NCBI GenBank assembly: GCA_037043015.1
Contig: CM073321.1
Coordinates: 36,000,101-36,064,100 of the forward strand
DNA from: Bryum argenteum
Taxonomy: Eukaryota > Streptophyta > Bryopsida > Bryales > Bryaceae
Direction of reading: 5' to 3'
Length of the DNA: 64,000 nucleotides
Below the pieces are notes generated by a model. The model ran no database searches. It saw only the letters and a program-made list of their open reading frames with translations, and was not told the origin of the DNA. The number at the start of each line of letters is the position of its first letter. The first letter of the stretch is position 1. This document shows positions 1 to 58,930 of the stretch, one piece after another. The translations under genes and the position numbers were made by a program.

Positions 1-791
1 TTGGGGATAATTCGCCAACTAGACGTACTGAGAGAGTTCTAGACCGGTATTAGGAGGATGAGCAGACTCAACCAGTGGAGGAGCTTGTGTCACGATCGAT
101 GTATTAGGATCCATGGCGAGTTGGTCGGAAGCAAGGGACACCTCAAAGGGAGTGTCTGGATTATCCCGAGGCCGGGGATTATCTCCAGCCGTATTAGGAT
201 TATTGCCAATTGCCTGAGAATCAGCCCCGCATGGATCTGACGCCTCTCCGGATCCATCATTACCACCGAGGACATCGTGGTTTGCTCAGGTTCCCTCTCG
301 GCCGTATTTGGCTGCTCGTGCAAGTCGGAGCCAATAGCTGCAAAAATATCCCCGGCCGGAGAGAATCACGGGCGGCCGTGCCCAACAATAGCAACATAGG
401 CTCCACCTCGCAGCCAGGTGGAGCCCCGGTGGACATCGCAGTATTATCCCCGGGGATAATCTACAAGAGGTCCGGTACTTGGGGCGTCTGAAGTTGAAGG
501 CAGCGGTCTCACCTCCTCACCTACAACAATTGCAGCAATGTGGGCTAGCATCGGTTGGTATTTCCCGGTCCTCATCTATTCAATCAATGCATCACGTTTT
601 GCGAGCTTCCTTGCGTCCTTCGCTTCCTATCTGGCTTTTTCTTTTGCCAGTCTGGCCTCCTAGGCCTTCTTCTTCATGTGCGCCCAGAAGTGTTCTTCAA
701 ACTTCACACCCAGAGCACCTAGAAGAGGCACAACTCCTGCTGCATTATCCATCGGGTCACTAGAGGGGTTGCAAACAACAACAACCTTCTA
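1..791. other. Downstream flank of copy 1 with family A palindromes
   Basis: No convincing gene is seen here. The stretch lies 3' of the minus-strand ParB-like copy 1. It contains a family A half-site at the very start (bases 1-11), degenerate family A palindromes at 160-182 and 346-367, and a perfect 18-bp palindrome at 443-460 (ATTATCCCC joined directly to GGGGATAAT). Short reading frames on both strands look like chance frames in GC-richer DNA. Confidence 0.5.
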
Positions 792-1779
792 TCACTTCAC
801 CGCCTTGTCGGCATACGGAGCTGGCACGTCGACCTTGGGCGCTGGACGGTCGACGACATAATATTCTGGCGTGGGATCCCTGCCGTCGTTGTCACTTAGA
901 TCAATGTATACGTGGTCGGCCGCCACAAATGCATTCATCGGTTTTTCCCGTCTGTTTAAGCCTTTGCTTTGAGGGGTTGTGTCCATTGCAGCTGCAACTG
1001 CAGATGTGGACATGGCGCAAGATGCCCCATCCACCGGTTGACTAGAAGTTGTGATCCCAGCCGCGAGATCGAGCCGACGCTTCAATGGCCTCCGCGAATC
1101 AACAAGCGCCTAGGGGTTGCCCGATGATCCAACAACAACATCTGTAGATGATTGAACTGGCATTGTCGTCGTCGTGACAAGCGTTGCCGGAATCACAAGC
1201 ATAGGCTCCTTACTAGGGCGTTGAGCTTCTATATTAGGCTCCTGCGCGTGGCAATTGTCACTCATCGAAGTGGAGCTAAGAGGAGATGTCTCCATTGCCT
1301 CCTCATGGTGCTGTGGGCGATAGAGGCGGAGATTGCATGATCGGGGATTCTCATGTAGCCTAATCAACCGAACAATCTTCCGAGTCGTCAGAATCGTCAG
1401 AATAGGAGTCGCTAAAAGAATCACCGCTATGGTTCTCCTCCGGGGAATCTAGATGAGTATCTAGAGCCTGAGTGTGAGAAACCGTGCACTCTTAGCTTCC
1501 AAGTCCGACAGGGGCTCAGGTGCAGAAGTTGATGGTTGGCTCCCCTCGAATGAAGCCCTCGTTACGAGGCTGAGGTCAGCCTTTACATCAGACAATGAGT
1601 TCTTCTTGGGGTCGTAGGGACACTTGTGGTGTATGAAGTCCCTATAGTCAAGACGGGTCCTTTAACCCGGAGAAAGCAAGTAACCCCTATAGTAGTGCTT
1701 GTCAACCAAGCCGTAAAAATCATGTTTCAGGATTTGCATGAGCAACGATGTAACAATCAGTGGCGTTGGACTGGGTATA

Positions 1780-1803
1780 GTTAATTCCGGTCGGGGGATA
1801 AAT
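1780..1803. repeat. Family A palindrome (degenerate), intron of copy 1
   Basis: A degenerate family A palindrome ending in GGGGGATAAAT. It lies just upstream of the acceptor at about 1771 in the intron 1771-2002 of copy 1. Confidence 0.55.
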
Positions 1804-1935
1804 GATAGACCTCGACAGTGGGTGAAAAGCAAGATATTCAACAACATGAATAGATAAAAATGAGAAAATCTAACTAGATGATATAGCCAAATATCTACAC
1901 TAGAATACAGTTAAAGTTACTAAAGCCCGAGAACT

Positions 1936-1958
1936 AATTATCCCCGGGCGGAGATAAT
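1936..1958. repeat. Family A palindrome, intron of copy 1
   Basis: A family A palindrome (left arm AATTATCCCCGG, right arm close to CGGAGATAAT) in the same intron of copy 1, immediately after the donor side. Confidence 0.65.
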
Positions 1959-3447
1959 GGCACTCTTTCGAGTCATGAGAGGAGTGTGGATGTTGTACTT
2001 ACCAAGGAGGCAACCATGAATTTTGAACCAAAGAAGATCCCAAAAGTGGAATGACCTTTCTTGCAGTATTTCCCGATGAGTCCAATGTAAAACTCCATCC
2101 GCACTTCTGAGTACTTAGTACTCCACTTGGCTTGGTTGTAATGCCCGCTATCCGTGTCATACGGCACAAGTGGGGCTTTCAGATCCAGGAAGTTGCTACC
2201 GATGAAGGCATTCCATTCTGGTGTCTTCTTGAACAAGAAAACGATCTACACGTCATTTGCAGATTTCTCTGGAGCTGGAGCGTTGAAGATCTTCTGAGCT
2301 TCTATAACCTGGTATTTTGACGTGCTCATTGTGTAGTTGGGGTGGCTAAGCTCAATCATCGCCTTTAGCTTATCTAGCTTCTTCGCAATGGAGTCCTTCA
2401 TGATCCAGACCCAAACAGTAGGCTTTGTGTAAGCTGGGCATGATATGACCGAGAAATTCGATACCAAGGATTTAAAGAACTCCTTTGCAGAATTGGTGTC
2501 CCTGCATAGCCCGAAGGCTGTGTCTCGCAAGTCGAACAGCCCCAACAAAAGTGTTCTTGCAGGCGCCTCCGTCGACCATCCGCTTCCAAGAGTTATGGTC
2601 TTCGAGTCGAAGTTTCGAAGATCAAATTCCTTGCTGGACTCCCGATGCTTGTTTTTACAGTGAAGGAAGTTCTTGAAGAAGTCCACGACGTTGGGGAACA
2701 TGGCCTTTAGCTCCTTGGCTGTCTTGCACTTCCCTTGATTCTGCAATCGCGTCGTGTAGAATTTAGCCTCAACGTGGCTGATAAGCATGTTCCACAACGC
2801 CGTGGAGAAGCCCTTCTTAGACTTCTATTTCTTCCATTCCTCATGGCATATTGCTCCGTCGTTGGGAAGGAAGAATGGAAGAGTCGGCTTGATTGCCTTC
2901 GGCTCTGTCCAAGCGATTTCCTTGCACTTGAGACAAATTATCCAATCTCCACACGCGTGATTTATTCGATGAAAGTATTTTGTCTTGCGGAAGGACAACC
3001 TTGGATACTTCATCGCTCCATCTGCAGTTTCAACATGCACGAAGAAAGTGATACCTCTGTCGATGTCATCATTGGTTAGATTTCCGAACTTCCTGAAGAA
3101 CTCCCCGCTCACATGATGTTCAATTTTGGTGAAGTAAGATGTGTTCATTCGATAAGGCGCACATGTGTCGGGGTCAATCAGATTTCCAAGCGAATGGAGG
3201 TCGAGGAACTCCTCGAACTTTTCGTACATGGAGTCCAAAAATGTGATGATCTGGATCTCTTGCTTAAGGTCATATGTAGTCAAAATTGTCTTTTGTGCCT
3301 TGTTGGGATTGATGCTGCAAAACTGAATGATGAGCGGATCTGTAAATTTCTGTGAGAACAAAGAGTTAAAGTAGTAGATGCAAAATTGTTACCTACTGAG
3401 AGCATAAAAATGGTTTTCTGTGTGCATTACTGAACAATATAGTCTAG

Positions 3448-3468
3448 TTATCCCCGGATCGGGGATAA
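3448..3468. repeat. Family A palindrome, intron of copy 1
   Basis: TTATCCCCGG, one centre base, then TCGGGGATAA: a near-perfect family A site. It lies in the intron between the ParB-like exon and the long methyltransferase-like exon of copy 1. Confidence 0.75.
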
Positions 3469-3625
3469 ATGATTACGACTTCCTCGTTATGGCATGAAGT
3501 TCTAGATGAGTCTTATATCAACCACTAAACTGAACAAGTGCTCAACAATTTAAGCGACATTATCTAGAGGGAGGGATTAAAACGAATGCAATGGGGGTGG
3601 ATATTGAAAGAAATATGGAGGGGGG

Positions 3626-3646
3626 TTATCCTCGGTCCGAGGATAA
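3626..3646. repeat. Family A palindrome with matched changes in both arms
   Basis: TTATCCTCGG, one centre base, then CCGAGGATAA. Relative to the family consensus, both arms carry the same substitution at mirrored positions, so the symmetry stays perfect. It lies in the same intron as the 3448 copy. Confidence 0.75.
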
Positions 3647-5146
3647 TCTTAGGGAAAAGGCTATTGTATTACCTAGTAATTGGTGGGATTGTGGATGAAG
3701 TTGTTATTTTGTTTCTTGTTCTCATTCACACTTGAGGAGGGACGGCAACATTCGATCCAAATAGACCTCTCTGGTTTTATTTGGTTGCCCCTCGTCGGCT
3801 GAGCGTGCTTAAGAGGGTTTGTGGTGTTGAAGAATGCCGAAACCGCTGTGAGGCACTTTAGGTCGGTATTGTAAAGAATGTGGGCATACCACGATGGAAG
3901 TTTTACCTTCCTTTCATCTGTCACGGGCTTGTTCTGAAGCTCCCTCGAGGCTTCCACGGAGTGCTGCCCATCAATGATGGCACATCTTTCATCCTTGATG
4001 GACTCCCATGTTGTCGGCTGCCTAGGGAGCAAATTTCCTGCGGCATCAATGGAGGTGATGATGATTGTCTGCCTCTTGTTGATATCTTCTAGCCTTGAGA
4101 GGTAAATCTTGATGTTCGTTATTATGTCCCTCTCTAGACTTTGTACAACCCAAGTGTGCTTTCCTCTTTCAATGGGCACTAGCTTCCGTTCTTTCTTGAA
4201 CAAAAAGGAGTCTTCGGAGCTCGCGTTGAAGTTTGTCTGCTCACAAGCAAAGTTCACATAGTGTGCCACTTCATTCAAAGGTTTGAATTTTTCCTTCTTT
4301 TGTCGAGCGGCCACTTCGACGATAGAAGTCAAGACCGATCCTTGACTTGCGCTGGGAGGGGGAGCTGTATGCTGCCTCTTATTTTGGGGGCAGCACTGCC
4401 TGCTACAATCACATCATTCATTAGCCTCTTAGCAGGCACTCAAGGAGTAGCCGGCACAGCAGCACTTGATAGCGGAGATGATGCTTCAGACTGCAAGGCT
4501 GGTGCAAAGGCGACAGGTGCCTTCTTCTTTGTTGGCGCTTTACTCTTTGATCCTTCATGCGACTATGAGAGTCTTGACAACATTGTCGTAAGCTTCTGAA
4601 CTATATCTTCTTGGTTGATGTTCTCCCAGCTATTAATGTTGTCCTCCAAGAATTTGAGAAAGGCATGTCGAGTCTTTTAGAGTTTTAGAAGGAAGCCCTG
4701 CGGGTTGAACTGTGCTCCGCAGTCTACTCCCACCTCTACCACTATTCGAAAGTGGTAAGGATCCCTACCCTCGTCCTGCTGCAGAAGCACACACCTCAGC
4801 AACATGTACTTGAGTCTGTGTGCTCCAAATGCTGTTAACCTTACATTTTGGTGTAAAGGAAGATAAAGGTCCATGTAGACCATCTTGGTCATAACAGGGA
4901 CATGATTCTTGATAATTTTCAGTGTCCAGCTGACGACCACTTCTTTGAAGATCCACAGATCAAGGCTTTTGTCACCGTTAACGCGCATGAAAGCGTTGAT
5001 CACGAAAGGGTGCTCAACCCTGTCTAAGGACATGTCAAGGGGATTGGTAGCGCTGAGTGCCATTGTATTGTCTATAATTGTAAATGTTGATGTCTGAATG
5101 AGGAAATTCTGTAACAATCTAAGGAGTAGATCAATAGACACATGAA

Positions 5147-5263
5147 TTTATCCCCGGACCGGAAATAAATATACCAAAGAACTGTGATCACTAAGGGGAG
5201 GTTGCTAGAGGTTTAGGAGATAATTCATTGATTGAGCCAGAGTATCCCCAGACCGGGGATAAT
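5147..5263. repeat. Two family A palindromes just 5' of copy 1
   Basis: Two copies (5147-5169 and 5242-5263) lie immediately upstream of the first recognised exon of copy 1. The second reads GTATCCCCAG, one base, CCGGGGATAAT. Confidence 0.7.
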
Positions 5264-5728
5264 GTCAGGGCGAGGACTATCTTTCATCCGGCGATTACTG
5301 AAGTACGGGTCATGATCTGATTGATTTCTTCTGTATGCTTGAAATAATCTAACGTGGGTGATTGTCTTTCGATTACACATGAGTTACTTCTACTAGTGTT
5401 GACGGTCTTGATGGACACGGAAGATAAATTTCTTGACTGATACTCATTGGAGGCGCAGCGTGCTTATCCTCTACGGTTGTAGGAGATTACGCTTCCTAAA
5501 ATTTTCCCAGGCCGGGGACAATTCCCAGCCTAGAATGGAGATTTAGAACCATGCAAAATAAAACGTCCCTAGGACGCAAACATGTTTGTTATATTTTGCT
5601 ACCTCTTAGTGGACATCTCGTTTCCGGCGGGAATTGTATGTTTATTCTCTGAAGTCACTCGGATTATACCAAAGTATGTGATCTTATTTGTCTGTCCGTT
5701 GTTATGGAACATGTGACAATTCGACGGA
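5264..5728. other. Non-coding upstream of copy 1
   Basis: No gene is seen. Degenerate family A sites are present at about 5463-5489 and 5499-5523, so this may be leader or intron sequence of copy 1. Confidence 0.4.
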
Positions 5729-6307
5729 ATTATCTCCGGCCCGGGGATAATTTTTTTATCTAGGTGATATCTACAATTAAGCTTAGGAATTATCCGCGAC
5801 GTGGGGATAATCTGCTGTTGTTCTATGAAAAATTGTGGCGAAAGGGCAGAATTATCCACGGGCGGGGGATATTTGATACTTCTATGATTGATAGTTACGG
5901 CTATGTTCATGATTCATCCCGGAGTCGGGGATAATGTGATGCCGTTTTATTGAAAATCATGGCCAGATGGCAAATTTATCCCCGAACCGCGGATAATTGT
6001 TCCTTTTAGGGTTGATAAATACGGGTATTTTCAAGATTTATCCCCAGGTCGGGGATAATGTACTGTTGTTTTATGGTAAATCATGGCGAAATAATTGAAT
6101 TATCGTCGAGCCGGTGATAATTAATACTTCTGAAGACTATATTTTTGGCTTTTTAAATGAATTATCTTCGGCGCGGGAATAACCTGTTGTACTTTTATAA
6201 TAAATCATGGCACAATTACAATATAATCCTCGGGCGAGGGATAATTCCTTCATACAGGGGACACATATTCGCCTATGCGCAAGATTTATCCCCGGCCCGG
6301 GAATAAA
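5729..6307. repeat. Family A palindrome array, ten copies at about 62-bp spacing
   Basis: Ten palindromes start at about 5729, 5788, 5850, 5911, 5974, 6037, 6098, 6160, 6222 and 6284. The consensus arm is ATTATCCCCGG, then one centre base, then the reverse complement. Spacers alternate between two related types: one holds a TTTTAT..AAATCATGGC core, the other an ACTTCT..TACGG..TTT core. The real repeat is therefore a dimer of about 123 bp with two palindromes per unit. The array is 5' of minus-strand copy 1, between its first exons and its GC-rich leader. Confidence 0.85.
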
Positions 6308-9241: not shown

Positions 9242-12186
9242 CTAGTCCTCTCCACCGTCGAACCGCTCAATACTTTCTTTGATGAGTTCGATTTGACGCC
9301 CCGATAATGAAATAATCGGACGCCGAGAGCCAAGTTTTGCACTTGATTTCCATGACATAAAAATAGCATCAGCATGAAGCCATTCCAGAATATGAGTGTC
9401 TTGAACTGTCCATTTGAAAGTCTTCTTCGTATCCCAACCAACATAGGTTTCCTGAACAACACTATTTTTTGATGCAGGTTGAAAATATTGCATTTGAATA
9501 GAGCTTGGATAGTTGTGATCAACATCGAAATGAGTTAAAGCCCTAGCAATCCAGAAAGGACGAGCATCCCCATCGGCTGGACGTAGAGCTACAAAATATC
9601 CAGCAAAAACATCTCGACCAACCTGAAACGACTCCCTTGGTCAATCACACAACCATCCGATAAAGTGCGGATCACGCCCATATTCCTCTCGCAATTTGCC
9701 AATATTTAAGAATTCTCGTGTCGTAGGTACTCGAGATAAAGGCCAACACCCGTTCTTCAAAAATGAAGACACTTCTATAGGCTCAACCGACGCAATGTTC
9801 ACAGCTCGCCAATAGCGAATAACAAATTCATGACGCCGACGAAATTCTCCAGATATGTCCTCCGCACATGAAGTCTCCCACATCTTAATAAACCCTCCAA
9901 TGCCTTTTACAATGTCGTCACGGTTCTTCCTAGGAATGGGCGCCAAAGGTTTCATCTCACCTGTAGGTAACAATGGTTTTCCTGTATTTCGGTCCTCTTT
10001 CCACAATTTTATCCCTCCATTAGTAGAAGGTAACTACTCATTGTCTGTGCATAACATCTTATACTGCATCATGGGCCATCCATTGTCATGCTTGTAAAAC
10101 TTGAATTGCTGACCCTCCGAATGCCCAACTAGAATTTCATCTCTAGAACCAATGTAGTCTTTGATATAACCCTTGAAGTCAGGTATTTCCTCTATCAAAT
10201 GAGGAATGACCGGCAAAGACTCCGCGTCCATAAATGACTTCATCAACTGAGGAAGTGTGAGAAAGTCATTCTCTTTGAGATTCATGCTCCAACGTCCAAA
10301 GAGGGCGTCAATATCTTTGTGGGTATGTCCAACTAACAAGAAATTGACATATACTTCACGGAACGCACCCATGTGTACCAGAAGAGACCAAAAGCAAACC
10401 ATAAATCTATTCTTGTTGTCAGAAGTTGCATTGTCCAGTTGCACATGCAGGACAGGAGGTAGAGGCTCCGCCACCCCCGAAACTTCACTTTCAGGAGAAA
10501 GAGAGATTAAACACCCTTCTTTTCCAAACAATATAGCTTCAAATACCGGCAGCGACCCTAAATTTGCGAATAATGATTTTGAATACGACATCGGAATACC
10601 TTCTAGATCTCGTAAAAGCTTTAATATTGATCCAACAATGTGATTGCAATCACTTGGATAAATATCGAGCCCATAATGAGCATACCGGACATCGCTATGC
10701 CCGTGCGCAATCATGCCAGTCACAGCAATTGGAAGCTTCATCAATGCATCATTTGCCTTTGTTTGATGTAAAAATACAGGGCACGAAGTCTTTGCATGAT
10801 CCATTTTGTCATGTATTATACAAAGTACATCTCTTGGCCTCTGAATAGAAAGAAAACGATTTGAGTAATAATACTCACGATGCGTTTTTTGATGATGCAA
10901 ATGCTCCTCTAGCTTCTTGATCCACATATTTTCTTCACATGAATCAGGTACCATAAACTTGATCATTGTCTCCATCCTGTCACAGGTTGAGCAACGAGCA
11001 AAGTTGTCCCTCAGCGCCTTCTTCGAATACTCAGAAAATTTTGACCTCCTAATCCTGCTAAGTGTGCTCTGAGAAATGGACTTCAAGCCCAGCCTCTCAT
11101 TGATGTCATTGATCCCAGGTATAGCATCCTTCCATTTGAAGGATGACGGCAAGGACCGAGACACAACCTTCTCACCATATGTCAACATCTTCGTCCTGTG
11201 AGGCATATAATCAACAACATTGTCAATGAATGTCTTCACAGTAGCTACAGCTTGCCTAACATGCAATCGTGGTTTCTTTTGACCAACATTGCCATGGTGG
11301 CGAGCACGTAGTCCAGCTGCAGCTTCTGCCTTCCTCCTGTAGAATGTTGAAATCGGAACTCCACTTATATGTTGCCATGCACGCGCGCAAACGTCAATGT
11401 CTTCAGTGGTTACCATCATTGTGCCGTCTGGAGCCTGATGAAAACGATTATGAACATCTATCTTGAAATGAGACTTAAATTTAAAACCCGACGCCTCGTA
11501 CATCTGCTTTCGGAGAGCCATAATTTTGTCTCGAGGGAAGGGTTGGCAACAGTTCTTACTGCAACAAATCTTGCTTGCAACCAAGTTGACTGAATCTAAC
11601 GTCAGAAGCTCCTCTTCTCTCTTGGTCCTTAAGAATCGTGAGTTCCGATGTCCCAACTCATACGGTCGCACCCCCTTTCTCTTTGGATGATTGCGGGCAT
11701 AAACAGCAACGTCAAATTGATCAACTCGTAAATGATCAAGTAGTGACCAACCCTCATGGATAGCATGGCTGAGCTTCCAACTCCTAGATCCATATATGGT
11801 CTCAGCAGGTACGAAGTCGAAATTCAAGCACTTCACGATCTGCACAACTACCTGATCTTCACATACGGGCTCGTCATTACTCTCTAACATTCTTTCAGCG
11901 TCCAGAGTCTGACAAATGCCTTCACCTACAACGTCTCCACTATCGTTGAGAAGTGTCACAAATTTAGTAACCCATTTACTTCTGGGCAGTCCGGGGCAAT
12001 CTTTTAAATGGTCCGGAAGAATAAGCTCGAAAGGACCATCCAAGTCCTATAAGACCACAAACAAAGATGAATTAGTACGAATGGATAAACTCAAGACAAA
12101 AATATATTAAGCAGAATTAGTAAGTCCAATACCTCAGAAAAAAGATGCTGAAAATCTCCGTCGCCATTGGATTCCCTCAATTCCAT
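9242..12186 (-). pseudogene. DUF7869-type protein gene, two exons, two in-frame stops
   Basis: Start ATG at 12186, exon 1 12133-12186 (18 residues), a GT-AG intron 12047-12132, then one long exon 12046-9242. The frame gives about 950 codons but is interrupted by TAG at 10034-10036 and TGA at 9641-9643; the same frame continues sensibly after each. Features seen: a Cys-rich stretch CCSKNCCQPFPRDK near residue 180; IIHDKMDHAKTSCP near residue 430; LDNATSDNKNR followed by LLVGHTHKDIDALFGRW near residue 565, the signature block of DUF7869 proteins of plants and animals; and a C-terminal part (VALRPADGDARPFWIA) like the chromatin-reader-like tail seen in such proteins. Spaced acidic residues suggest an RNase H-like fold (inference). 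Function is unknown; a transposon origin is possible. An untranslated first exon lies upstream, since an acceptor precedes 12192. Confidence 0.75.
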
Positions 12187-12287: not shown

Positions 12288-12554
12288 CATTTAGCTCGAC
12301 TCGAGCTAAATGGGCATCGGGAAAACAGTTCGGCACGCTCACAATGCATGTGTATAAAGAGGACCATTTAGCTCGACTCGAGCTAAATGATCCTCTTAAA
12401 ATCATCTCCCAAGAAAAATCAAATAATACTTAGGTGGATGACCATTTAGCTCGAGTCGAGCTAAATGCTCTTCCTATGAATCATCAAGTACACGACTTCG
12501 TGAACTCGAAGTATTTTGATGTGGATGCCCATTTAGCTCGACTCGAGCTAAATG
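12288..12554. repeat. Family B palindrome array, four copies, leader of the DUF7869 gene
   Basis: Perfect 25-bp palindromes at 12288-12312, 12365-12389, 12443-12467 and 12530-12554: arm CATTTAGCTCGA, one centre base (C, C, G, C), then the reverse complement. Spacing is 77, 78 and 87 bp. They lie in the leader or first intron of the minus-strand gene, upstream of the acceptor at 12193. Confidence 0.9.
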
Positions 12555-21949: not shown

Positions 21950-22220
21950 ATCTCGCCACTGAATCAAGACATGTAAAATTACTTCCTGGATCTAATCGTA
22001 ACGATCATTATGATGTTACACTGCCCTTCTGAATCTTACATGTGATTCTATTTTGTTGAATGACAGTGATGCCGAGAACCAAAACCACTGCCAAAATTGT
22101 TCAAATGGCTGCGAATGCACTTGCCGAGCCTGAATTTGAAGTCCATATGGAAGCAGAGGAGCAAGAGTCTGTTCCTGAGGTTAGAGTCCACCTTATATCC
22201 ATATGCCCATTTGATGTGTC

Positions 22221-22245
22221 CATTTAGCTCGAGTCGAGCTAATTT
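22221..22245. repeat. Family B palindrome in intron 1 of copy 2
   Basis: A near-perfect family B site (last arm bases decayed) inside the 92-bp intron 22180-22271. Confidence 0.85.
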
Positions 22246-23681: not shown

Positions 23682-23706
23682 GTTTTAGCTCGATTCGAGC
23701 TAAAAC
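23682..23706. repeat. Family B palindrome with matched arm changes, intron of copy 2
   Basis: Arm GTTTTAGCTCGA, one centre base, then TCGAGCTAAAAC. The outer bases differ from consensus on both arms in mirrored fashion, so it stays a palindrome. It lies between the ParB-like exon and the exon starting at about 23742. Confidence 0.85.
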
Positions 23707-43428: not shown

Positions 43429-43550
43429 CATTTCGGAATTGCACGGACAAGTGCCAGACTTGCGTGGACGCAAGTTTGGACTCCATTCAAATAGAAGGAT
43501 GATTTCTTCTTGAGGCGTGTGAGAGCGTGAAAACGCGCTCTTGTTTAAAA
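43429..43550. repeat. Repeat R copy 1 with family D palindrome
   Basis: Related to copies at 45343, 47224 and 47683. It includes a GCACGGACAAGTGC stretch and a family D palindrome (arm AGACTTGCGTC) at 43456-43477 with two mismatches. Confidence 0.7.
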
Positions 43551-44950: not shown

Positions 44951-45480
44951 TTTAGGCTCACAAAGCGGCTTTGTGATTGTGCTGTTTTGTGACGAAGGAG
45001 GTGTCAGCCTTGCTTCTTCTCTTTGAATGTGGGTGCTGGCCGCCCTTGATTCGCTCGACAGCATGCTTGAAGGAGGCTCCTCGTGGTGTCACCAAGGTTG
45101 CTGGTCCTGCCCGTTTGCCGTGATGAAGCTCCTGGCTGAGCGCGCAAAAGGGCCTCGGGGGTCGTTCTTGTTGACTCGTTCCTCGCATGAAGGTGGCTCC
45201 TCAAAGTGTTGCGCAGGATGCTGTTGATGGTAGTTGATGGCGCTTACGCTGTTGGCTGAGCCTGCTTGAATTGGCGTGACGGTGTCGTTTTTATTTGCAC
45301 TGTTGTTGTGATTTTTTTGTTGAAGGCAGGAAGTATAGGATGCGAATTTCGGAATTGCACGGACAAGTGCAAGACTTGCGTCGATGCAAGTCTAGACCCC
45401 ATTTAAATGAAAGGATGATTTTTTCTTGAGGTGGCTTTGTGATTGTGTTGTTTTGTCACAAGGGAGGTGTCAGCCTTGCT
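44951..45480. repeat. Repeat block R with family D palindrome
   Basis: A unit with GGCTTTGTGATTGTG and GTGTCAGCCTTGCTTCTTCT words, repeated at 45430, 47300 and 47770. It carries a family D palindrome at 45372-45393 with one mismatch. The frames across it are not conserved. Confidence 0.65.
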
Positions 45481-45545
45481 TCTTGTCTATGAATGTGGGT
45501 GTTGGTGTGATTCCCTCGACAGCATGCTTGAAGGAGGCTCCTCAG

Positions 45546-45653
45546 GTGTCGCGAAGGATGCTGTTGATGGTAGTTGCTGGTGATGACGGTGTTGGCTCCG
45601 TGTCGCGAAGGATGCTGTTGATGGTAGTTGCTGGTGATGACGGTGTTAGCTCC
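45546..45653 (+). repeat. 54-bp tandem duplication
   Basis: Two near-identical 54-bp units (45546-45599 and 45600-45653), each starting GTGTCGCGAAGG. A third GTGTCGCGA follows at once and overlaps the start of the solo LTR. Confidence 0.9.
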
Positions 45654-45654
45654 G

Positions 45655-47136
45655 TGTCGCGACTCTAATTACTTCAATGTTTTTTATTCTTAGTGAGCCT
45701 TATTTGGTTACGGAATCCCGGCTCACGTAGTAGGTAGCACCCGGCCACGACTTAGCTAACACTTGCATGTGCTCCACATACACAATGTTGGCACCATTTT
45801 AATTCAAGGTGTCCAACCCACCTTGATTCCATAACTCATTATCTGATACTCATTACCCAAGACTCTCACCAACACATGGGCATGCCACTTGGTGGCACGG
45901 GGCGGCCTTTCACAAATGTCCAAGCTCCCAAGGGTAACACTAATCACCCCAAAGCTAACCGCCCTTATCCATTGTCCAAATTCCCACTAGTCCCCTTCCC
46001 CTCTTGTCTCACTCCATTCGGGACTTTGCCAGAAACCCTCCCGGAATCTGGCACTAGTTTTCCCGGAGACCAGCTTCGAGCGAACTCTTTCCAACCCAAT
46101 GTTGCAGGATGCTCAAGTGCATCCCACAATGCCCAAGGTGTAGGAGTGAGGCTTCCTTTCCATGCCTCACATTTTTGATCCATTCCCGGTCACTCTCGGG
46201 AACCGGCACTACTTATCACGGGGACTAACTTAGAGAGGGACACTTCCCGACCCCATCTTTAGAGATGCTCCAAAGCACCCTCCAACTTCTCCAAGATGTA
46301 GGAGTGAGACCCCATCCCAAGCTTCACCCCTTAGAGGCACTCCGGCTCCTCATGGCACCATGTGCAAGTGAGAAGGGAGACCACCCCTCCTCATAATACC
46401 CTCTGGCGTCTTTGGTAGCCCCCCCCCTCTTGTGTTAAGGGCCTTCCATGACAAACTTTTGTTTTGGAAGACCACCCGTTTTTGCCTTAGCCTCAAGAAC
46501 GGGCGGTAACTTCTTCTCAAGCTAACTCGTAGCTCAATTACTCAAATAAGCTTCTTGAGCCCATTTTCGACATTTATTCTTTGAGTAGATGTCGACAGAC
46601 TCCTCCCATGTCCCGATTGGAGCTTTCATATGAGAGTTATGCTCCTCTGAACATTCAGGAGTCTCGGGAGGCAACAGTCCCGGAGTCTTGAAGTCCTGAT
46701 GCTTTGGAGAGCCATATCTCCCGAAGCATTGCTCTGCTCCTCACAAGCCTTAGCATTCTGGAAAGCCCTTGTCCATAGCTTTCCAACGACATGCAACATG
46801 CCGCCATCCGTGAAGGACGACATATTGAGTCCCGAAAGGCAACACTCCCGAGTCTCGGAGTGTCCTGGAACGCGCTCCAACTTTGGAGAGCCATATCTCA
46901 TGACTCACAACTCCAAATTGCGCATTCTTTAGACCCATGGGTGCGTGCTTGAAGAAGGTTTTCAACCATGTTAGGCACCTTACCATGTTCGTCCCAAGCA
47001 CAACGCTATTGCGTGCTGTTTGCTCGGAACTCTCCTTGGTCACCTCACCTTCTCTCTTGCCAAGCCCGGGGCATCAATCCCGGGGTCCTCTTGGCTCACC
47101 ACCGTGTTCGGGCATCCTTTGGAAAGGGATGTGACA
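45655..47136 (-). mobile_element. Solo LTR of the chromovirus family, inverted
   Basis: About 1.48 kb matching the LTRs at 27599 and 33773 on the opposite strand, from TGTCGCGA to GATGTGACA, with no internal region. It sits inside the R repeat block; repeat sequence is found on both sides. No clear target duplication. Clearly diverged from the other two LTRs, so old. Confidence 0.85.
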
Positions 47137-47840
47137 GTGTGCCGGCTCAAACTTGCATAAAATTGTCGTTTTTGTTTGCACTGTGGTTGTGATTCTCTGT
47201 CCAAGGTAGGGAGTATAGGATGCAAATTTCAGAATTGCACAGACAAGTGCAAGACTTGCGTCGACGCATTCAAATGGAACGATGATTTTTTCTTAAGGTG
47301 GCTTTGTGATTGTGGTGTTTTGAGGCGAGGGAATTGTCAGCCTTGCTTCTTCTCTGTGAATGTCGGTGTTGGCCTCCCTTGATTCGCCCGATAGCATGCT
47401 TGAAGGAGGCTCCTGGTGGTGTTACCGAGGTTGTTGGTCCCGCCCGTTTGCCGTAATGAAGCTCCTAGCTGAGCCTGCAAGAGGGCCTCGGGAGGTCGGT
47501 TTTGTTGACTTGTTCCTCGCAGGAAGGTGGCTCCTTGATGTGTCACCTAGGATGCTGTTGATGGTAGTTGATGGCTATGACGCTGCTGGTTGTGTGTGCT
47601 CGGACTAGCATGACGGTGTTGTTTTGGTTTGCACTGTTGTTGTGATTTTTTTACGCTAGGCAAGGAGTATAGGAGGCGATTTTCAGAATTGCACGGACAT
47701 GTGCAAGACTTGCGTCGACGCAAGTCTGGACCCCATTCGAATGGAAGAATGATTTTTTCATGAGGAGGCTTTGTAATTGTCATGTTTTGAGATGAGGGAG
47801 GTGTTGGTCATGCTTCTTGTCTGTGAATGTGGGTGGACGA
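47137..47840. repeat. Repeat block R, continued, with a perfect family D palindrome
   Basis: Two further R units. A perfect 22-bp family D palindrome (arm AGACTTGCGTC plus its reverse complement) is at 47706-47727; a copy at 47252-47268 has lost its right end. Confidence 0.75.
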
Positions 47841-48540: not shown

Positions 48541-51500
48541 CTAAGAGTCAAGGTGCTTCAATAAGCCACTCTCTAGGACTCGCTTCACTTCATTGAAGGT
48601 CAAACTAGCTGCATGTATGAACGTATCCGAATCTGAGTCCAAGCCACAAACGACTGTAAACAAATAGTATAAGTGCTTACAATTGGCCCATTGACCTGGC
48701 TTCCCAAGTCCCTTTGTTGCCATCGCCTTGAAATTAGGACAAGTGCATGATGGTATCTGCGAAATTGTCAAGAAGTACTGCTGGACCTTTGGAGGCTTTC
48801 TTGAATCCAGTAAGACAATGCATCCCAGCGCAAGGCTTGGAAGCATGCACAAGTTGCGCACTTTGGCGTTTAACGAAAGTGCAGATGCACAATTATTGGA
48901 ATGCTTAGTTGACGGGGCCTTCTTATAGCGTCGGATATTCTTTCCTGAACGGCGAGTGGAAAACTCATCCGGATATGCCGGCATTGGGTAAGCCGATAAG
49001 TCCAGTTCCAATGGCTCGTCTTGAAAGAGTCTTCTCGGTGACATCTCCTTCTGTTGTGGAAGCCTAAAGCCTGCATTTTCTAAGGAGAGGATCTCTTTAG
49101 AAGTCAAGTTAGTCCCTAGCTTAACCTCTGGAACCTGCGGCACTGTGATTACCACTGCCGTTTTGTGCCCTTCACGCACCTCTCAATGTCATCGTTGCAG
49201 AAGAAGAATTGCATAGTGTCTTGTCTATTCTTCCGGTAGTTCTTCATTAGACCTGTCTAGGTTGGAGTTGGGGTGCTCTTCCAGTCTTGCACAATCCGTG
49301 CCACACACTTCTTATTTGTAATAGCTTGTTGAGCCAAACAAGCTTTGGCGGATGTCTTGGAGAGACGTGCAATGTGCCATTGAGAAGGATCGCAGATGGT
49401 CTCCTCTATAGCAGTGACGTGGTAGCAATCTACTTGCGGCAGAGATTGCTGACGGCAAAGGTCAGCTTCCTCTTGTTCGCTGGTTGTGGGAGAGTCGGCT
49501 ATCACCTGAGTTGTAGGATACTCGCTCTCTTTGCGTGCAGATCTAGTCTGGACACGAGGTCTTGGAACACTGATTTTATCACGCCTTTCAGACTCACGCT
49601 CATCTCCGAAAGCATTATTAGAATTGCGTTTTAGAGAAACAAATACCTCTTCTCCTTTAAGATGCGGGTCTTTGGTGCACCACTCATCAACACCGGGCAT
49701 CTTAAGAATCGCTTCGTGAAGTGATTTGGAGTTTTCTGTTTTGGCTGCAGATCTATGTGCGCGTCTGAGCGTGAGCTCCTCTTTTGAAGGACCGTTTCCA
49801 GGACGCTCTCCTTCCAAGAATTGGGAGTACGCAATACAATGCATGAACGCTCGCACGAAGTCGTCCACGGCTGCCACATACAAGTCGCTACCCCGATCTC
49901 CAGACTGTTGCTTCGACTTGTTGTGAATTGGTTCCGCAAGGTTGCATGATGGCATCTCTGCAAGTTCGTCTTCGCTAAGATTCTAGAAACATTGGAAGTA
50001 GATCAGTTAGCTCAATATTGGATAAGTCAAAGTTGGCCAAGTTTGAATGCTACAGAACTTGAATGTAATAGAAAGAGTTTCCCAGCTCCATGAAGCCTCC
50101 CCATTGGCGATACCAAAAGTGTCAGAAGGCTAGAAGTGTCGAGTCGGGGTAATCCTCGCTTACTCGACGCGCTAGATGACATCCACCATGCTCGAATAGC
50201 TTGAAACTTTGTTTCGGCTTCTGCCATTGACGTGGCATTCTTGTATTGATGATAGAGTTTTCGGTGTTGAGCTTGGAGGTCTTGCCGGATGTCAGCCTTT
50301 GTGTGTTTTTCTAGGGACTGGGTCCAATGGAAGAGGCAAGTCCCTTCTCTGACAATCATCTTCTCAGACGCATTTCCGCTCCTATAGACGATGCGAACCG
50401 CATTCCAATTAGCCTGGGAGCTATCGGCCATAAAGCCCTTGAAATTCACATTCTCAACATCGTGCTTTGTCATAATGGCATTCAGGTTCTTCCAAACAAC
50501 CGATTGGGCTGTCGTGTCCTCAGACTGCATGTCGCATGTTGCGATTGTCATGACTCTGCAATATTTAGAATCATAAACGTGACAAGCCATCGCCGTTCAC
50601 AATCTAACACGTTTGACGTGGTCAAACATTATCCACGCATTCTCCAAGTCACCCCCACACTGCATTCGCTTCACGAGATCCACTCCGCAACCCGGCCCGA
50701 CTTAAGACATTTTAAAGACAAAAACCTTATCTATATCCTCTCCTTGCCTTGGAAACATGTTCTTTTGGACGAACTTCCAATTGCTAGCAGCACGTTACTG
50801 GGTAATACTGTCCATGACTCCAAAGCGACGGATAGCCTTGTATGTGGTGACTGTGTTACAAATGTTGGGAGAGGTGACTAGGTGAGGTGTTTACACCGGT
50901 CAAAAATGACTTGCAGCTCGTCCAGTTCTAAGATCTTCTGTGGTTCTCCTTCTTTAGCAATGAGGAGTGGGCCCAGTACTTCTTTTGCAGTTTCAAGCAC
51001 AATTGCGGAGCGAGTGACTAATGGAGTGCGTTCAACTTGCTCTCTAATCAAGGTGTCAGTTAGTTCAATGAAGTCCCGATGATCTCCTGACTTGACGGGA
51101 TGGTCGTGACACCCCAAGTGCACACAAGCTCTTGTCATCTGAGGTGTCGCAGTGAAATAGTAGATCTTGGCAGTGCAGACAGCTACACAAGTCGGGGAGA
51201 CATTGCAAGACTTGCAAACAACGATTGAACGAGTGGGTGGCATAGACCCCACCTCAAACACCTTCTTAGATAATCCATCCCACTCAGTTTCATTCAAATG
51301 GGAAGTTCTGTGGTCTCGCCGAAGATACTCACAATCACGGTTGTCGCAATGGAGGTGGCCGAAACAAGAAGACGTACGAGACAAAAGATTCAGATCATTT
51401 GCAATATTTGATGAAATTGTACGAGACCAAGCATGGCCATCGTACCGTCTATCCATTTCACGAAGCTGCTTGGCCTTTGTGTTCTGACCGTAGTCACCTA

Positions 51501-52184
51501 ATGAAGGAAGTCCAAAGATAACATCTCCATTGTAACGAGGGGGGAGGTAATCAACCTGCTGGAGTTTAATTACATCAAAGTTAATTCGAGATAAGACATT
51601 CTTGGATCATTTAAGAGCTCCAAGACGCATCAATGAATCAATGATACTTTGAACAGGACTTGTCCCAACCTAGGACTGACCAAGAGTACGAGAAAGACTA
51701 TTAAGAGGAGCTGATTCCTTAAAATGTACGTTTGGACGTAGGGTACCTTGTACTTCACTCTCTAATCGAATAACTTCAATCTCACTATCAGAGTCATCAC
51801 TCAACTCATAAATTGTTTCTAGACGAGGCTCAATTTTGAGTCTAGACAGTACTGGTCTCTCCATGCTAAAAGTAGACGACTCCCTAGGTGTTCACTGGAA
51901 CCATCAAACACAGACTCTGAGACTCCATAAACACAGTATTTTCCGGGCTTCAGCACCCAAAACGAACCGACATGATTTTCTCCTCTGGTCTGACTCTGTG
52001 CATGTGAAAGAAGACCGGTTTCATCGTGAAAAACTTCTTCCTCGACAAAGACAGTGTCCTCACGAAACTTAAACTTAAACTTAAATCTCAAACTTAATGT
52101 TGTACAAGTGACTTTAGCATGACGGTCTTCGCCTAATGGAAAGAGGACCAAAACAGAATGATGATTAGCACAAAGAAAGGCCAT
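48541..52184 (-). pseudogene. MULE transposase remnant B, nearly full order of domains
   Basis: Read downward: N-terminal part (51819-52184, then 51670-51864 with YELSDDSDSEIEVIRLE). A Cys/His-rich zinc region follows at 50878-51456 (FGHLHCDNRDCEYLRR, then CKSCNVSPTC, HLGCHDHPV), like the DNA-binding front of Mutator proteins. The MULE catalytic region is at 50027-50590 (VMTIATCDMQSEDTTAQ, FMADSSQANWNAVRIVYR, TCLFHW). Then come VAAVDDFVRAFMHC, CDPSQWHIARL and VKLGTNLTSKEILSLENAGF. It ends in a SWIM finger (CTCPNF and CKH, near 48700). The frame changes several times (near 51860, 51460, 50800, 50590 and 49180). Mutator-like elements move by cut and paste in the nucleus. Terminal inverted repeats were not found by eye. 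Confidence 0.8.
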
Positions 52185-53713: not shown

Positions 53714-53729
53714 GTCTCGGTACTGAGAC
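53714..53729. repeat. Family C palindrome
   Basis: GTCTCGGTACTGAGAC, one mismatch from the 16-bp palindrome GTCTCGGTACCGAGAC. It lies beside a GC-rich patch (53790-53890) that may be the leader of copy 3. Confidence 0.75.
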
Positions 53730-54775
53730 TCACATGGCACTGTCTGAGAGTTGGAAAGCCGTTGTATGTGTCGGAATCCGCCAGTGTTGGCGATGGCACT
53801 AGCGATGGCGCCCTCTTTGCTGGTCGTCACCCCCACACTCGTTGTGGCAACCGTTTTTTCTTGTCGGTGCCGAGAGACGGCCGTGATAGTCAATAGTAAA
53901 TTTTTGGACGGTGGTCACTCCTTTCGCACGGATAGACACTCCCTGCTGCTGTTTGTTTGAGGTCTTTTTGGATGAGTACACATGAAATATATGTGATCTT
54001 AAGTTGCTTCACAAGCTTTGGAAATGATCTGAGAATCCGGAAATGATAGAAAAGAATGGAATAGAAAATGTAAGGACCGTTCGAAGTGAAAATCAATACA
54101 TGATAATATTCCTGTCAGAAGTTAGAATATTCAAGAATGTACCGGTTGTGGGAATGCATATACTACTCGGTGTGAAAATATTCTGTCCGCGTGCGTGTGA
54201 GGGTTGATTCTTCTGTGGATATTCTGTCAATTCAACGAGACCTGCTTTGTTGTTTGTATTGACTATTCGATGGGTCGATGAGTTACAATAGAAACTACCA
54301 TGTAGATGGTTTGGGAAGGAAAAGGATCTTTGTATGTGGGGGAGTTGTTCATTTTGTTGTTTGTCTTCGCGACCGAATTGTGTAGCACTTGTTTGTCATC
54401 TGGAAAGACATGCAAATATATAGTACGACACAATAATAGTAGATCTGCACAAGTAGTTTTTAGTGCATCCAATCAAAAAAGAAGATATAGCAGGATTAGT
54501 GTCTCATGCCAATACCTTTAAAGAATGCCGGATCCTGACGGTACCTTGACGGTTCCTGTGATCCTGATGGGAGTCTTACTTCATTCATGTGTCCAACTAC
54601 CGCAAATTGTTCTAGCTTTAGATGAATCATGAGGCATTACGTTTCGTGAGGTGGTTGACATCCACATTAGATTGGACACTCTTAGTAGTCGATGTAGATA
54701 GAACCTGAAAGCACTTGATAACTGAAAATTGAGCTTTCTCACAGATATCGATCAGTTGTATGTGTCGAATTGCCC

Positions 54776-54854
54776 GTCTCGGTACCGAGACAGTAGTGAG
54801 CAGTTTTTGAGAGTTGGCTCGGCAATCTTTAAGTGGGTGTCTCGGTACCGAGAT
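54776..54854. repeat. Two family C palindromes 63 bp apart
   Basis: GTCTCGGTACCGAGAC at 54776-54791 (perfect) and the same with the last base changed at 54839-54854. The spacing of 63 bp is close to that of the family A array. Confidence 0.85.
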
Positions 54855-55239
54855 AGTACTCGGCGGACAATGCGGCAGTCTTAGCGAGGATGCTATATCT
54901 CGTTTTCCACTGAATGAGCTGAAAATGGGTGTCGCGCTAGTCTTCTAATTGCCATGGGTGTAACTTCCTCGTGAGAAATTCATCTTTGATGGGCCTGGAA
55001 CAGCAGAATGGGGAGGTATGTCCCATTGGCCATCGTATCTCATGTAGAGGATTTCAGCCCTTTCTGGTTTTGGAAATATGTGTCTCGGTACCGAGATGCA
55101 TGCTCGCACGTACAAAAATTAATCGATTGCCTTCACCTATCTAGAGCCTCATTCAACTTTCTAGAAGTACATGTAACCAGTTAGAATTAGTTAGATAATC
55201 ATTGACCAGTCATTGATTGATTTTTCTCAGGTACTTCAC
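54855..55239. other. Leader or intron 5' of copy 3
   Basis: Non-coding, ending in an acceptor (TTTTTCTCAG) at 55230. Contains the family C site at 55082-55097. Confidence 0.45.
55082..55097. repeat. Family C palindrome
   Basis: GTCTCGGTACCGAGAT, with only the outermost base off the palindrome, about 140 bp before the first coding exon of copy 3. Confidence 0.85.
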
Positions 55240-58200
55240 ATGGACAGTGAGAAAGACTATGATGGTGGAGACGCGGCCTCTTTGAACGATAACCTGGTGA
55301 GTGTGTGAAGTTCAATATCTCAATGGCAGATTCTAATGTTGGTAGTGGATTTTTGTTTTGGCTAATGATTTTCATTTCTGTTTGTAGATGTCATGTAAAT
55401 TCTAGTGAGATTAATTTCGTAAAAAGTTTGATTTAGTTAATTATTGTGCAACTCAGTTATACCTACTAGATTTGTTCTTCATCATTTAAATATTGAACTC
55501 TGTTTTGTAGGTAGAGAGCCCCGCCGCCCATGATGTACCCGCTGATTCTTCACCATCAGCGATTCAAGCTTCATGAGAGAATGCAATTGATTTAGATTCT
55601 GATGAAGGTCAAGATGAGGCTGAAGAGGGGCTTGACGAAAAAGATGCATTTGACGGAGATGAAGATGACATCAGATCCCGTCAGAAATTGAATTCCGTGA
55701 CCACGATCTATCAACTGAGAGTCCAACCTTTTAGTTCATCAAGGTTCAATATTCCCCTATGTAGGATGTCGGCCATGCCTATGGTGAGGCCCACACTCTC
55801 AACTGATCTTGCTAACTTAGAGCAAGAATTTGTCCATGGCTATAGAGAAGGCTCCTCTGTTTTCTATGTGACAATAACAGATGACGAAGGCAAAACACGT
55901 GAGGTTATTCAAGCTGATGAAGCATCTTGATGTCCCATTTGGAGTGCCAAAAATGAAGAATTTAATTCCTTTCTTCAGTCTGTTCCGGAGTTGGCTAGTT
56001 TCAAGAATTTGATGTTCTTCGTATGTGATGGTAACCATAGACGTCAGGCTTGGTTAAATCATATTCAAAGGCTTCACAAGAAAGAAGAAGCTTGGCATTA
56101 CTCAGTGGACAGCATCCTCCTTGACACGAAAGGAAAAATTGGTGTTGTTATGCAAGTGATGCATAACATCAACAAGTAAGTTTTATATCTTGATCTGAAT
56201 TCTTTTCCATGTTAAATACTTTGATTGCACTACTATTATGATATGCTCATGCCCTCTCTTTGATTCATAATTGTAGACATACTGAAGACTCTCACGTTAA
56301 GACCAACCTTGTTCACACCCTCTTTAGAGTTCAGAAGTACGGGCTCATGCCACTTGAACAGTATCAAGATATATTGACTCCATCGGAGATTAAGAGGTGC
56401 AAGAAATCTCAGAATGCAAAGACGTGGTATACATTGAATCTGCATGTATTCACGAACTTCATCTTCCAGTTATGATCTATATGTGAATTGGCTCACTTGC
56501 TTATATTAGGGATGAGGATGTCTCCTTTGCTGATTTGGGTATTTATATGTTTTCACTAAAAGTACTGGTGACATTTAATATTAAACTTTGTATATCGATG
56601 TATGCAATTTGTTTACCACAAGATACATTGAAATTTACTTAATTAAAATGACAAACAAAGGTAAATAATAGCATTTTCAGTGACAGAGTCTATTTTTTTG
56701 CAGCACGAACTTGGACTCCCAGCAGATGAGGGTGTTCAACAACTCGTGGAGCAATCAGACGGAAATGTGTCCGCTGCTGAAAAAGCAACCGCAATGAAAG
56801 TTGCTACCAAACAGAGAGTCGAGGCACTTCATAAGAAAATGTCAAAATTAGTTGCTGTGGCAAACCCGGAGTTGACAGAGAGATGGCTTCGAGAGGTATG
56901 AACTCTACTTCTAAAATCCATTTTTCATTATTCAAGTAATACTATGACTCCCTTTATTCTAATAAATCGCTCTTTTCTTTACAGAACGAGCGTCACTATA
57001 GCCTCAACTTGATTACACCGGATCTAAACATAGAGAAGCTGCAGTTAATTGTCACTGCAAAAGCATCTGCTGCTTCTAAAATCAAATGGTTGGAATATTT
57101 CAATTCCTCTGCATCAACATGCGAGGCCCACAAACTGCCCCTCAAGCCCACCAACGAGGAGAAATTGGGTGTCTTTGTTGCCAAAGCGTGTTTTTGGGCA
57201 GGAGTGAGTTTGTTAAATCTAATTGTGTTGATTTCATGTGTGTTGATTTCTACTATATGAGCTTAAATGTTTTCTTTTTACGCTCTGACGTGACTTGAGT
57301 TCCTTTAAGTACTGAGTCAATGTAAAGGAATGTGATGTGATTTGTACAACAATGATATGTTGTGATTACAAATAAATATTGATTACGTTTGATGACTTCC
57401 ATGCTACTGATTCAAGTAACAATATTCCCTCTTTTCCCACAGATATCCGAGCAGGCTTCCATTATCTTTGAAGAAACCGTGCGTCAAGATAGACTGGTTA
57501 TCAATTTTGAAGTACCCGGCGAGCCTTTAAGCTTGGTTGCATACATCGAGGACTGTAGGATGAAGTTATGGAACAATGCGTTCCATACTTTCTTCCGAGG
57601 GCAGGATGCTTTTAACAAAACTTACAAATTTGTGAGTTTTAATGGACCTGACTTGATTGTGCGAAGAGAGCTATTTCGGTGAGTTTTTCTTTCAAAGTAT
57701 TATAGTTCTTATATTTTGCATATTAATTTGGTTTTTGTGTGCAAAATATTTTGATTGCAAGGTATATAGTCATGGCCTTCTTTGTACTCGCAAGTACTTT
57801 AAGTACGAACTTTTTCCGGAAGGAGCAATAAGCAAAGAAGATCTCCCCATATTTCTCTCCGCATGGCTTGATAGGTCGAACTCAACGTGCATGTTTTCAG
57901 CAAATCAACAGCGCACGTGGTCAACCTCGCACCTTACGGGAGGTGGATGGTACCTTGACCGTGCTCCTAGTTTCACTCCTTCCTTTGAAACTGAACTTAG
58001 GAAGTCAAGGGAGGTAGTTGGAGAATCTAGTGTTGAGATGGTTGATTTACAGGGCATAGAAGATGAGCATGAGAGGGCAAGGGCCCTCTCACGACGTCTA
58101 GAAGAAGATAGGAAGAAGGCCATGAAGGTGAAGGAAGCAGAGGAGAAAGCGGCCCAGAAAGAAAACTAGAAACTCCGGAAGTCTCTGGAGAAGACTAACA

Positions 58201-58930
58201 AGAGAGGAAAAAAGAAGATGAACCCTCCTCGAGAGCCACAAGATAAAATCCATCTGGGCCTAGTCCCACATGCGACTCTAGTTTCTAGTTCAGAAACAAT
58301 TCTCATTATCTGAAAGCTTAGACAAAACTATAGAGTGTGCACAACTTAATTAACTTGGAGCTATAAAATACAGAAAGAGAAAGACATGAATTGAAATGAA
58401 ACATCATTGTAGTAATGAACTAGTGAATAACTTAAGGAATTAGGCAAAAACTTTATCAAGCAGGGGTGGACATGTTCAACAATTATATACAAAAGATAAT
58501 TAAACACAGTAGTACCTTGGAAATGAAGCTTTTCAAATCATCAAATAAAGGACTTAAGCTGCCAGTGTTTAATTATCTTTTGTAAGAAAGGACTAAAGCC
58601 CGACACTATAAGGGATCTGCCGCGAATGTACCCTGCGTAGACTTGATTCTTGCAGATCTTCCAGAGGGTCTTTTTGTTCCGGGAATTTCAAATCCACCTT
58701 CGTCTATCCCTTCCTGGAAGAGAGAATCTGAGTACTGGTTACAAACACTCTTCGATTTTGCAGACCATCACCTGCAAGACGATGGAGCAATCATTTTATT
58801 TCATCCATTTTGAATGACTACGAAGTCAAAAATTCTTGGATATTGCTCTACGTACGGTTTTGTTGTTCGCAAGGAGTGGTGGGGTATGAACCGCCTTCAC
58901 CTGACGTCCCCAAAGAATTAAGACTTAACG
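55240..58930 (+). pseudogene. ParB-like / N4-N6 methyltransferase-like fusion gene, copy 3
   Basis: ATG at 55240. Exons about 55240-55296, 55511-56175, 56278-56445, 56704-56895, 56985-57203, 57443-57678, 57795-58320 and 58586-58930, nearly all with clear GT-AG borders that match those of copy 4. The N-terminus is acidic. The ParB-like motif VCDGNHRRQAW is at about 56021-56053, followed by WHYSVDSILLD and MHNINK. Middle exons carry ERHYSLNLITPDLNIEKL and LWNNAFHTFF. The last exon carries VDLILADLPEGLFVPG (motif IV position, 58636) and DDGAIILFHP, as in beta-class N4/N6 methyltransferases but with DPPY replaced by DLPE. The motif I exon is missing; unrelated DNA begins near 59050. A few in-frame stops mark it as decayed. 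Closest relative is copy 4, in convergent orientation. Confidence 0.7.
58489..58583. repeat. 19-bp inverted repeat in an intron of copy 3
   Basis: ACAAAAGATAATTAAACAC at 58489-58507 and its exact reverse complement at 58565-58583, loop 57 bp. It lies in the intron before the methyltransferase-like exon and may be a small inserted element or a hairpin. Confidence 0.8.

Follow-up and report, generated by a model that had tools for sequence, protein, structure and literature searches.

The VANC proteins of Arabidopsis bind family-specific motifs, which stand in arrays upstream of VANA and within introns of both VANC and VANB, and they induce loss of silencing (excerpts of PMC5735166 and PMC10398659), and the VANC21 motif, YAGTATTAY, is non-palindromic and arrayed in one orientation (excerpts of PMC5735166). 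The Sola1 element of Ectocarpus holds a ParB-like and methyltransferase gene on the strand opposite to its transposase, and algal proteins in which a ParB-like domain is joined to an N4C/N6A methyltransferase domain have been proposed to bind the DNA of their own element (excerpts of PMC12477816, within which Iyer 2011 and a 2025 Bostrychia paper are cited). Here, a 64,000-nucleotide stretch of the moss Bryum argenteum (GCA_037043015.1, contig CM073321.1, positions 36,000,101 to 36,064,100 of the forward strand; hereafter the window) is described, which appears to hold probable two-gene mobile elements of several related families, every family having a ParB-like gene and a palindrome of its own.

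Each family would consist of a probable transposase gene and a divergent ParB/sulfiredoxin-like gene with a probably degenerate DNA-methyltransferase-like tail, together with arrays of one palindrome, ~16-21 bp long, that occupy introns and gene leaders. We favour, as the probable explanation, that the ParB-like protein recognises the palindromes of its own family and so controls or protects its mobile element. The many sites in control regions would keep the element genes open against host silencing, or regulate their transcription, as VANC does for VANDAL; since protein and palindrome change together, each family would act on itself alone. As far as the excerpts describe VANC and VANDAL, the likeness lies in an element-encoded protein family with a short family-specific motif in arrays, in arrays that occupy introns and the region upstream of the (here putative) transposase gene, and in motifs that are private to a family, are replaced between relatives and show tandem-repeat dynamics. 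The Bryum families differ in their palindromic motifs, their ParB-like protein and their probable transposase, which is either a DUF7869 or a SWIM-like protein. An earlier, sequence-only reading of this DNA had held that no such pairing was described in plants, which is too strong given VANC and its family-specific, though non-palindromic, motifs (excerpts of PMC5735166). With the algal proteins the system shares a ParB-like gene opposite in strand to the probable transposase; the excerpts of PMC12477816 mention neither palindromes nor family-private target arrays and concern other transposase superfamilies, whereas in Bryum several subfamilies occur in one genome and the methyltransferase is probably degenerate.

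A consensus scan of the window, controlled by three first-order Markov shuffles at identical settings, returned 20 sites of family A within 0.17-6.3 kb, 20 of family B and four of family C (one perfect, three with one mismatch). The shuffles gave none for B or C; for A they gave seven, five and four, which leaves chance as a possible source of the weakest A sites, and at the loose setting one extra doubtful, C-rich A match lay at 44.6 kb. Sites were located in gene leaders, in gaps between coding pieces and 3' of genes. The three families did not mix and each lay beside its own ParB-like gene, as the sequence-only reading had stated, and the high copy number it reported holds for the arrays of A and B, not for the four sites of C. 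Family A (TTATCCCCGG-N-CCGGGGATAA and variants) occurs at 161-5252, where it is scattered over the 3' part of gene A (1973-5147, minus strand) and the gaps that separate its coding pieces, and forms an array in its leader at 5148-6306, spaced ~62 bp from 5740 (5.74-6.30 kb). Family B (ATTTAGCTCGA-N-TCGAGCTAAAT) forms an array at 21278-22243 in the leader of gene B (plus strand), in part at 52-53 bp spacing (21.3-21.55 kb), followed by one palindrome (TTTTAGCTCGATTCGAGCTAAAA, 23683-23705) directly 5' of position 23706, where the resemblance of gene B to gene A sets in, and two degenerate ones at the 3' end (25459-25515). This family had been thought limited to gene B; a DUF7869 gene, too, carries four perfect sites in its leader at 12.29-12.55 kb (12289-12553), and a weak site lies at 9.19 kb. 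Palindromes had also been reported absent from exons, from which one weak A match (4979, five mismatches) departs by falling within a coding piece. The B sites at 23683-23705, at 22221 and at the first bases of 25459-25481 overlap stop-to-stop open reading frames (ORFs), in parts that, judged by eye, are probably introns or 3' ends.

Family C (GTCTCGGTACCGAGAC) occupies 53714-55097, the interval between a probable transposase and gene C (plus strand), with sites at 53714, 54776 (perfect), 54839 and 55082. Family D (GCCTTGCGTGGACGCAAGGC) has four sites with at most one mismatch beyond the window edge at ~64.44-65.57 kb (~64440-65570; L006 440-1570), upstream of gene D, the fourth ParB-like copy. 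An unguided palindrome scan of the 84-kb stretch around the window, the neighbouring 10 kb included, found family D and, in addition, D-like palindromes of a family E (GACTTGCGTCGACGCAAGTC; 43457-47726) at 43.46, 45.37 and 47.71 kb with two, one and no mismatches, upstream of SWIM-like ORFs at 41839-43033 (minus strand); this family is split by a probable solo long terminal repeat (LTR). Only five of 69 segments of 1.2 kb in the 84 kb scored four or more related palindromes, namely the A array, the B arrays of both leaders, the D array and one TA-rich place, while the C leader scored just 3.

To ascertain which palindromes accompany related genes, 1.2-1.5 kb upstream of seven cousin genes, one choice each, was examined. 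By protein search the subfamilies are 51-52% identical to B (eight listed) and, among the matches listed, ~29-46% identical to A and 50-60% to D. Palindrome arrays were present in five of the seven leaders, three of the five being one family, and two leaders were weak; in shuffled cousin leaders the score never exceeded 2 in 105 trials. The B cousin L040 holds 24 sites within six mismatches of TTTAGGTRGC-N-GCYACCTAAA (family B2), mostly at 30-bp steps and three of them exact; the unguided scorer, in an overlapping register, found eight copies. An array of TTCAACTCGA-N-TCGAGTTGAA (family H) lies in the leader of L042. The leaders of L041, L043 and L044 have a common palindrome, TATCGTCG-NNN-CGACGATA, and the three are therefore one family or close sisters. 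Cousin genes thus retain an array, of another palindrome. The proposal that a palindrome is private to a single gene copy does not stand, because families go by subfamily and are common to its copies; one palindrome per individual gene copy was dropped as an interpretation.

The palindromes of A, B, B2, H and a further family, G, follow one 21-bp plan of inverted arms around one to three free bases, with half sites TTATCCCCGG, TTTAGCTCGA, TTTAGGTRGC, TTCAACTCGA and TTATCGTCG, respectively; C (16 bp) and D (20 bp) have palindromes with an even centre. Conservation of the arms was compared in bits with that of flanks 14-24 bp from the centre, with sites chosen by palindrome similarity, which raises the arm values: 1.44 versus 0.33 for A, 1.68 versus 0.24 for H, 1.67-1.91 versus 0.66-0.75 for three of four B arrays, and 1.48-1.93 versus 0.38-0.61 for G and G-like arrays. 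A firmer point than the arm values is that in H and G the flanks are close to random and the sites unevenly spaced. Spacing in general is explained by tandem repeats in part only. Spacings near 62 bp (window 5740-6296), 52-53 bp (window 21288-21550 and C1:514942-515840) and 30 bp (L040) were observed; as 52-53 and 62 bp approximate five and six turns of DNA, the sites might share one face, and tandem copying may account for this equally well.

Across the genome (258.8 Mb, 25 contigs), exact matches numbered 805 forward and 810 reverse for A, 1873 for B, 48 for C, 51 and 116 for D, 34 for B2, 127 for G and 875 for H. The same patterns read backwards gave no match genome-wide in any of the seven families. 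Palindrome positions of A, B, D, G and H cover the first 100 matches each; linkage of A, B, D and G to genes was counted in the stretches so covered and, here and for B2, among the matches listed, which also define the A and D gene sets; second pieces of an already counted gene and genes outside the covered stretches were dropped from the D, A, B and G counts. Gene C stands beside C palindromes at 18 of 19 loci, window included, the exception being L016. Within C1:0-2.64 Mb, all eight B genes have B palindromes 0.37-1.43 kb upstream, in a region of which B palindromes, with 2.5 kb on either side, take up ~5%. B palindromes are missing from the 6 kb around each of the six A-type genes there, as are A and G palindromes from the 6 kb around each of the eight B genes. 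D palindromes lie within 6 kb upstream, and never downstream, of 17 of 26 genes of at least 63% identity (the window's own gene included), in contrast to none of 43 genes of at most 59% identity (Fisher 5e-10). A palindromes lie upstream of three of four close and one of four distant A genes in the covered stretch; the one close gene that lacks them, at C1:237101, lies 5.6 kb from G palindromes, which sit beside a neighbouring G gene. Exact B2 palindromes occur within 3 kb upstream of three of eight B2 genes and none of 97 B genes, and exact G palindromes within 6 kb upstream of six of 24 A-type genes below 55% identity and none of 17 above (Fisher 0.03). Exclusive pairing of gene and palindrome, proposed for the window, thus extends beyond it.

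Gene A consists of ORF pieces at 4677-5147, 3673-4413 (containing IIDGQHSVEA), 2825-3388, 2246-2824 and 1973-2245, which are 27-34% identical to the pieces of gene B, and has at least 152 genome matches by protein search. The first coding piece of gene B (22311-23489) contains RVIDEQHH where relatives have IDGQHH, and the window copy stops at a point where relatives read on; further ORFs at 23613-25464 (23613-23951, 23958-24332, 24831-25226 and 25156-25464) resemble pieces of gene A, the last being methyltransferase-like by eye. Gene C comprises coding pieces at 55577-58166, with CDGNHRRQAW in 55940-56176, that recur at 17 of 18 other C-palindrome loci, and by eye a methyltransferase-like 3' part (58640-59080), with ADLPEG at the place of a DPPY-type motif IV. 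Gene D (60940-63998, minus strand) contains EGNHRVMAW and has its ParB-like part at 63.1-64.0 kb and its leader past the window edge. IDGQHH is present in eight of eight relatives of B (DEQHH in the window copy) and E/DGNHR in 12 of 13 rows of alignment A2 (the exception being P0017), and both fit the DGxHR-type box II motif of the ParB/sulfiredoxin superfamily.

In a low-confidence model of P0002, a relative of protein B, 15 of the 16 top structures were named ParB, Noc, KorB, PadC or sulfiredoxin. Phrog_1033, a phage family of ParB-like partition proteins, matched weakly and below threshold (E 0.025-0.35) in four of eight scanned proteins, six of which hold the ParB-like part. For the tail, PF01555 matched one protein piece of the relative L020 below cut-off (E 0.015, 15.7 against 26.7 bits) and phrog_3008 the methyltransferase-like part of one piece (E 0.014). 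The ParB-like and methyltransferase-like assignments of the sequence-only reading are both supported, if weakly: the model suggests a ParB-like fold and the sequence a methyltransferase-like tail. No ParB-like protein matched the Pfam ParB domain above cut-off or any Pfam family, an NCBIfam search gave nothing meaningful, a sequence search of solved structures gave two meaningless matches for D and none for alignment A1, and a scan of viral and prokaryote contigs found no relatives. A profile search of the protein collection recovered the same eight relatives and one more. Profile comparison did not show homology between the A/B and C/D proteins, a weak negative because the alignments hold few diverse rows.

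CTP binding, a helix-turn-helix and a ParA partner are features of bacterial ParB systems. The Bryum families resemble ParB-parS and Noc/KorB in the ParB-type top structures of the low-confidence model and in short palindromic sites clustered near the gene, and differ in having many sites per element and no Pfam match for a protein known here from sequence and that model. It is possible, though doubtful, that they are a eukaryotic counterpart of ParB-parS, in which ParB-fold proteins would load at private palindromes in both promoters, spread as clamps and keep the element unsilenced, as a family-wise lock and key that arose independently of VANC.

The sequence-only reading overlooked that the palindromes are probably part of a two-gene mobile element and also precede its DUF7869 gene. 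This gene, the probable transposase of the B element, is an ORF of 670 codons (10034-12046, minus strand; PF25273, Pfam E 2.8e-42) with similarity carrying on through ORFs to ~9242, and the four perfect B sites sit directly upstream of it. Its protein has 66 scored genome matches out of 2362 first-look candidates. In 29 cases a listed B gene lies no more than 15 kb off, and in 28 of these the match points away from it (median gap 8.6 kb). B palindromes occupy both leaders in the two B elements read; the element at C1:513-526 kb has 20 in the ParB-like leader and 14 in the DUF7869 leader. Among DUF7869 matches below 79% identity, five of 23 have exact B2 palindromes ~9-10 kb off and one more has a B2 gene; in the leader of one such match (L045), a related unit of lower symmetry is arrayed at 30 bp. 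In the C element the probable transposase is encoded by ORFs at 48541-51606 (minus strand) with a CxC...CxH end, SWIM-like by eye and without a Pfam match, and DNA from part of 49.7-51.6 kb recurs beside gene C at 10 of 18 other C loci, some of which end short. Both proteins are considered likely transposases because of copy number and layout. Neither a VANC family nor a MULE transposase was found in the B element, where the probable transposase matches DUF7869 only and the ParB-like proteins no Pfam family; to our knowledge, VANC proteins are not ParB-like.

Recognition by the ParB-like protein is the simplest reading because it fits layout, exclusivity and turnover; it would entail binding, presumably by a dimer at the inverted arms, and may involve spreading and an effect on silencing or transcription. 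Exclusivity alone is no proof, as linkage within one element is expected from descent, and the stronger point is that cousin families carry another palindrome built on the same plan. A private palindrome suggests that the protein marks only its own element. Several observations weigh on the other side. Nine of the 26 close D genes lack a D palindrome and 27 of 100 D palindromes have no D gene within 6 kb, again among the matches listed; five of the 18 other C loci (L009, L012, L019, L021 and L024) hold one A-like site, with two mismatches each; and the D cousins L038 and L039 score only 0 and 3 with the unguided scorer, L038 having 12-13-bp palindromes in 111-bp tandem units and L039 one 22-bp imperfect palindrome within a repeated motif. 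Tandem copying may explain more in the fourth B array (C1:8292, seven sites), in B2 and in D, with arms against flanks of 1.82 versus 1.01, 1.36 and 1.63 versus 1.01 and 1.06, and 1.91 versus 1.76 bits (four D sites), respectively.

In Ac/Ds and En/Spm, repeats that are needed for transposition are bound by the transposase. The palindromes could likewise be binding sites of the element's own transposase, with the ParB-like gene a passenger, consistent with arrays that also precede the DUF7869 gene and with a DUF7869 protein that diverges along with the palindrome (74-77% identity between B and B2 types). We regard this as unlikely, since the sites lie in leaders and introns ~8 kb apart inside the element and are not shown at its ends. 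The ParB-like protein has also changed more between B and B2 (51-52% identity) than the DUF7869 protein, and the C elements, whose putative transposase is of another, SWIM-like kind, have palindromes and ParB-like genes as well. An inverted-repeat search between the two flanks of the B element, made to find its ends, returned nothing longer than 12 bp, and the longest matches were pieces of the palindrome. Rather improbable is the view of the arrays as neutral or selfish repeats that slippage or hairpin formation has multiplied and that only common descent ties to the genes. Tandem regularity (52-53, 62 and 30 bp), D and B2 flanks not far below the arms in conservation, and a leader filler similar by eye between D and the cousin L038 speak for it; irregularly spaced sites in G and H whose arms are conserved and whose flanks vary, one palindrome common to the two leaders of a single element, subfamilies with different palindromes on one 21-bp plan, and cousins that keep an array of another palindrome speak against it. 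DNA methyltransferases of this kind are expected to carry a DPPY-type motif IV. Least probable is that the protein marks the element by methylating its palindromes (N6-adenine or N4-cytosine), for although the weak PF01555 and phrog_3008 matches of the 3' part and the algal ParB-methyltransferase precedent (excerpts of PMC12477816) allow it, motif IV of gene C reads by eye ADLPEG in two relatives, a replacement that would probably abolish catalysis.

The protein type (algal) and the principle (VANC) each have a precedent. What is added, as far as the searches reach, are palindrome arrays private to a family, which match the protein subfamilies and are replaced from cousin to cousin. Literature searches, judged by their listings, found no report of palindromic targets for ParB-methyltransferase transposon proteins, no paper on DUF7869, only unrelated work on ParB and transposon palindromes in moss, none on bryophyte or moss-genome transposons with palindromes and a sex chromosome, and nothing on such elements under ParB CTP/parS spreading in plants. 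The ParB-methyltransferase accessory class gains concrete candidate targets, short family-private palindromes in up to 1,873 copies, and a single protein, with the sister palindromes serving as internal controls, makes a direct test of the self-recognition of a mobile element possible. If recognition by the ParB-like protein holds, the principle known from VANC, by which a transposon frees itself and nothing else from silencing, would have a second case in the moss, based on other proteins, and the families would form a natural library on how such a protein shifts its DNA specificity.

Other features surround these elements. A second DUF7869 gene (L005 338-3102, ~73% DNA identity) lies close by on the left side of the window; its leader and 3' region contain degenerate B-like sites (three to four mismatches). 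Contig C1 (44.1 of 258.8 Mb, ~17%) holds 82 of the 105 listed B-type ParB-like matches and 52 of the 66 DUF7869 matches, and may, as a guess, be a sex chromosome or other repeat-rich chromosome. No tRNA was found in the window. A Tc1-type transposase ORF (PF01498, 16096-16593) lies in the middle stretch of the B element and an ORF with a hAT dimerisation domain (PF05699) at 37372-38016. Two direct 1.5-kb repeats, 90% identical, at 27593-35303 enclose ORFs at 29.5-32.9 kb that by eye belong to a Ty3-like retrotransposon, and a third copy, solitary and inverted, lies at 45.65-47.14 kb (45654-47136), so that these repeats are probably an LTR element and a solo LTR.

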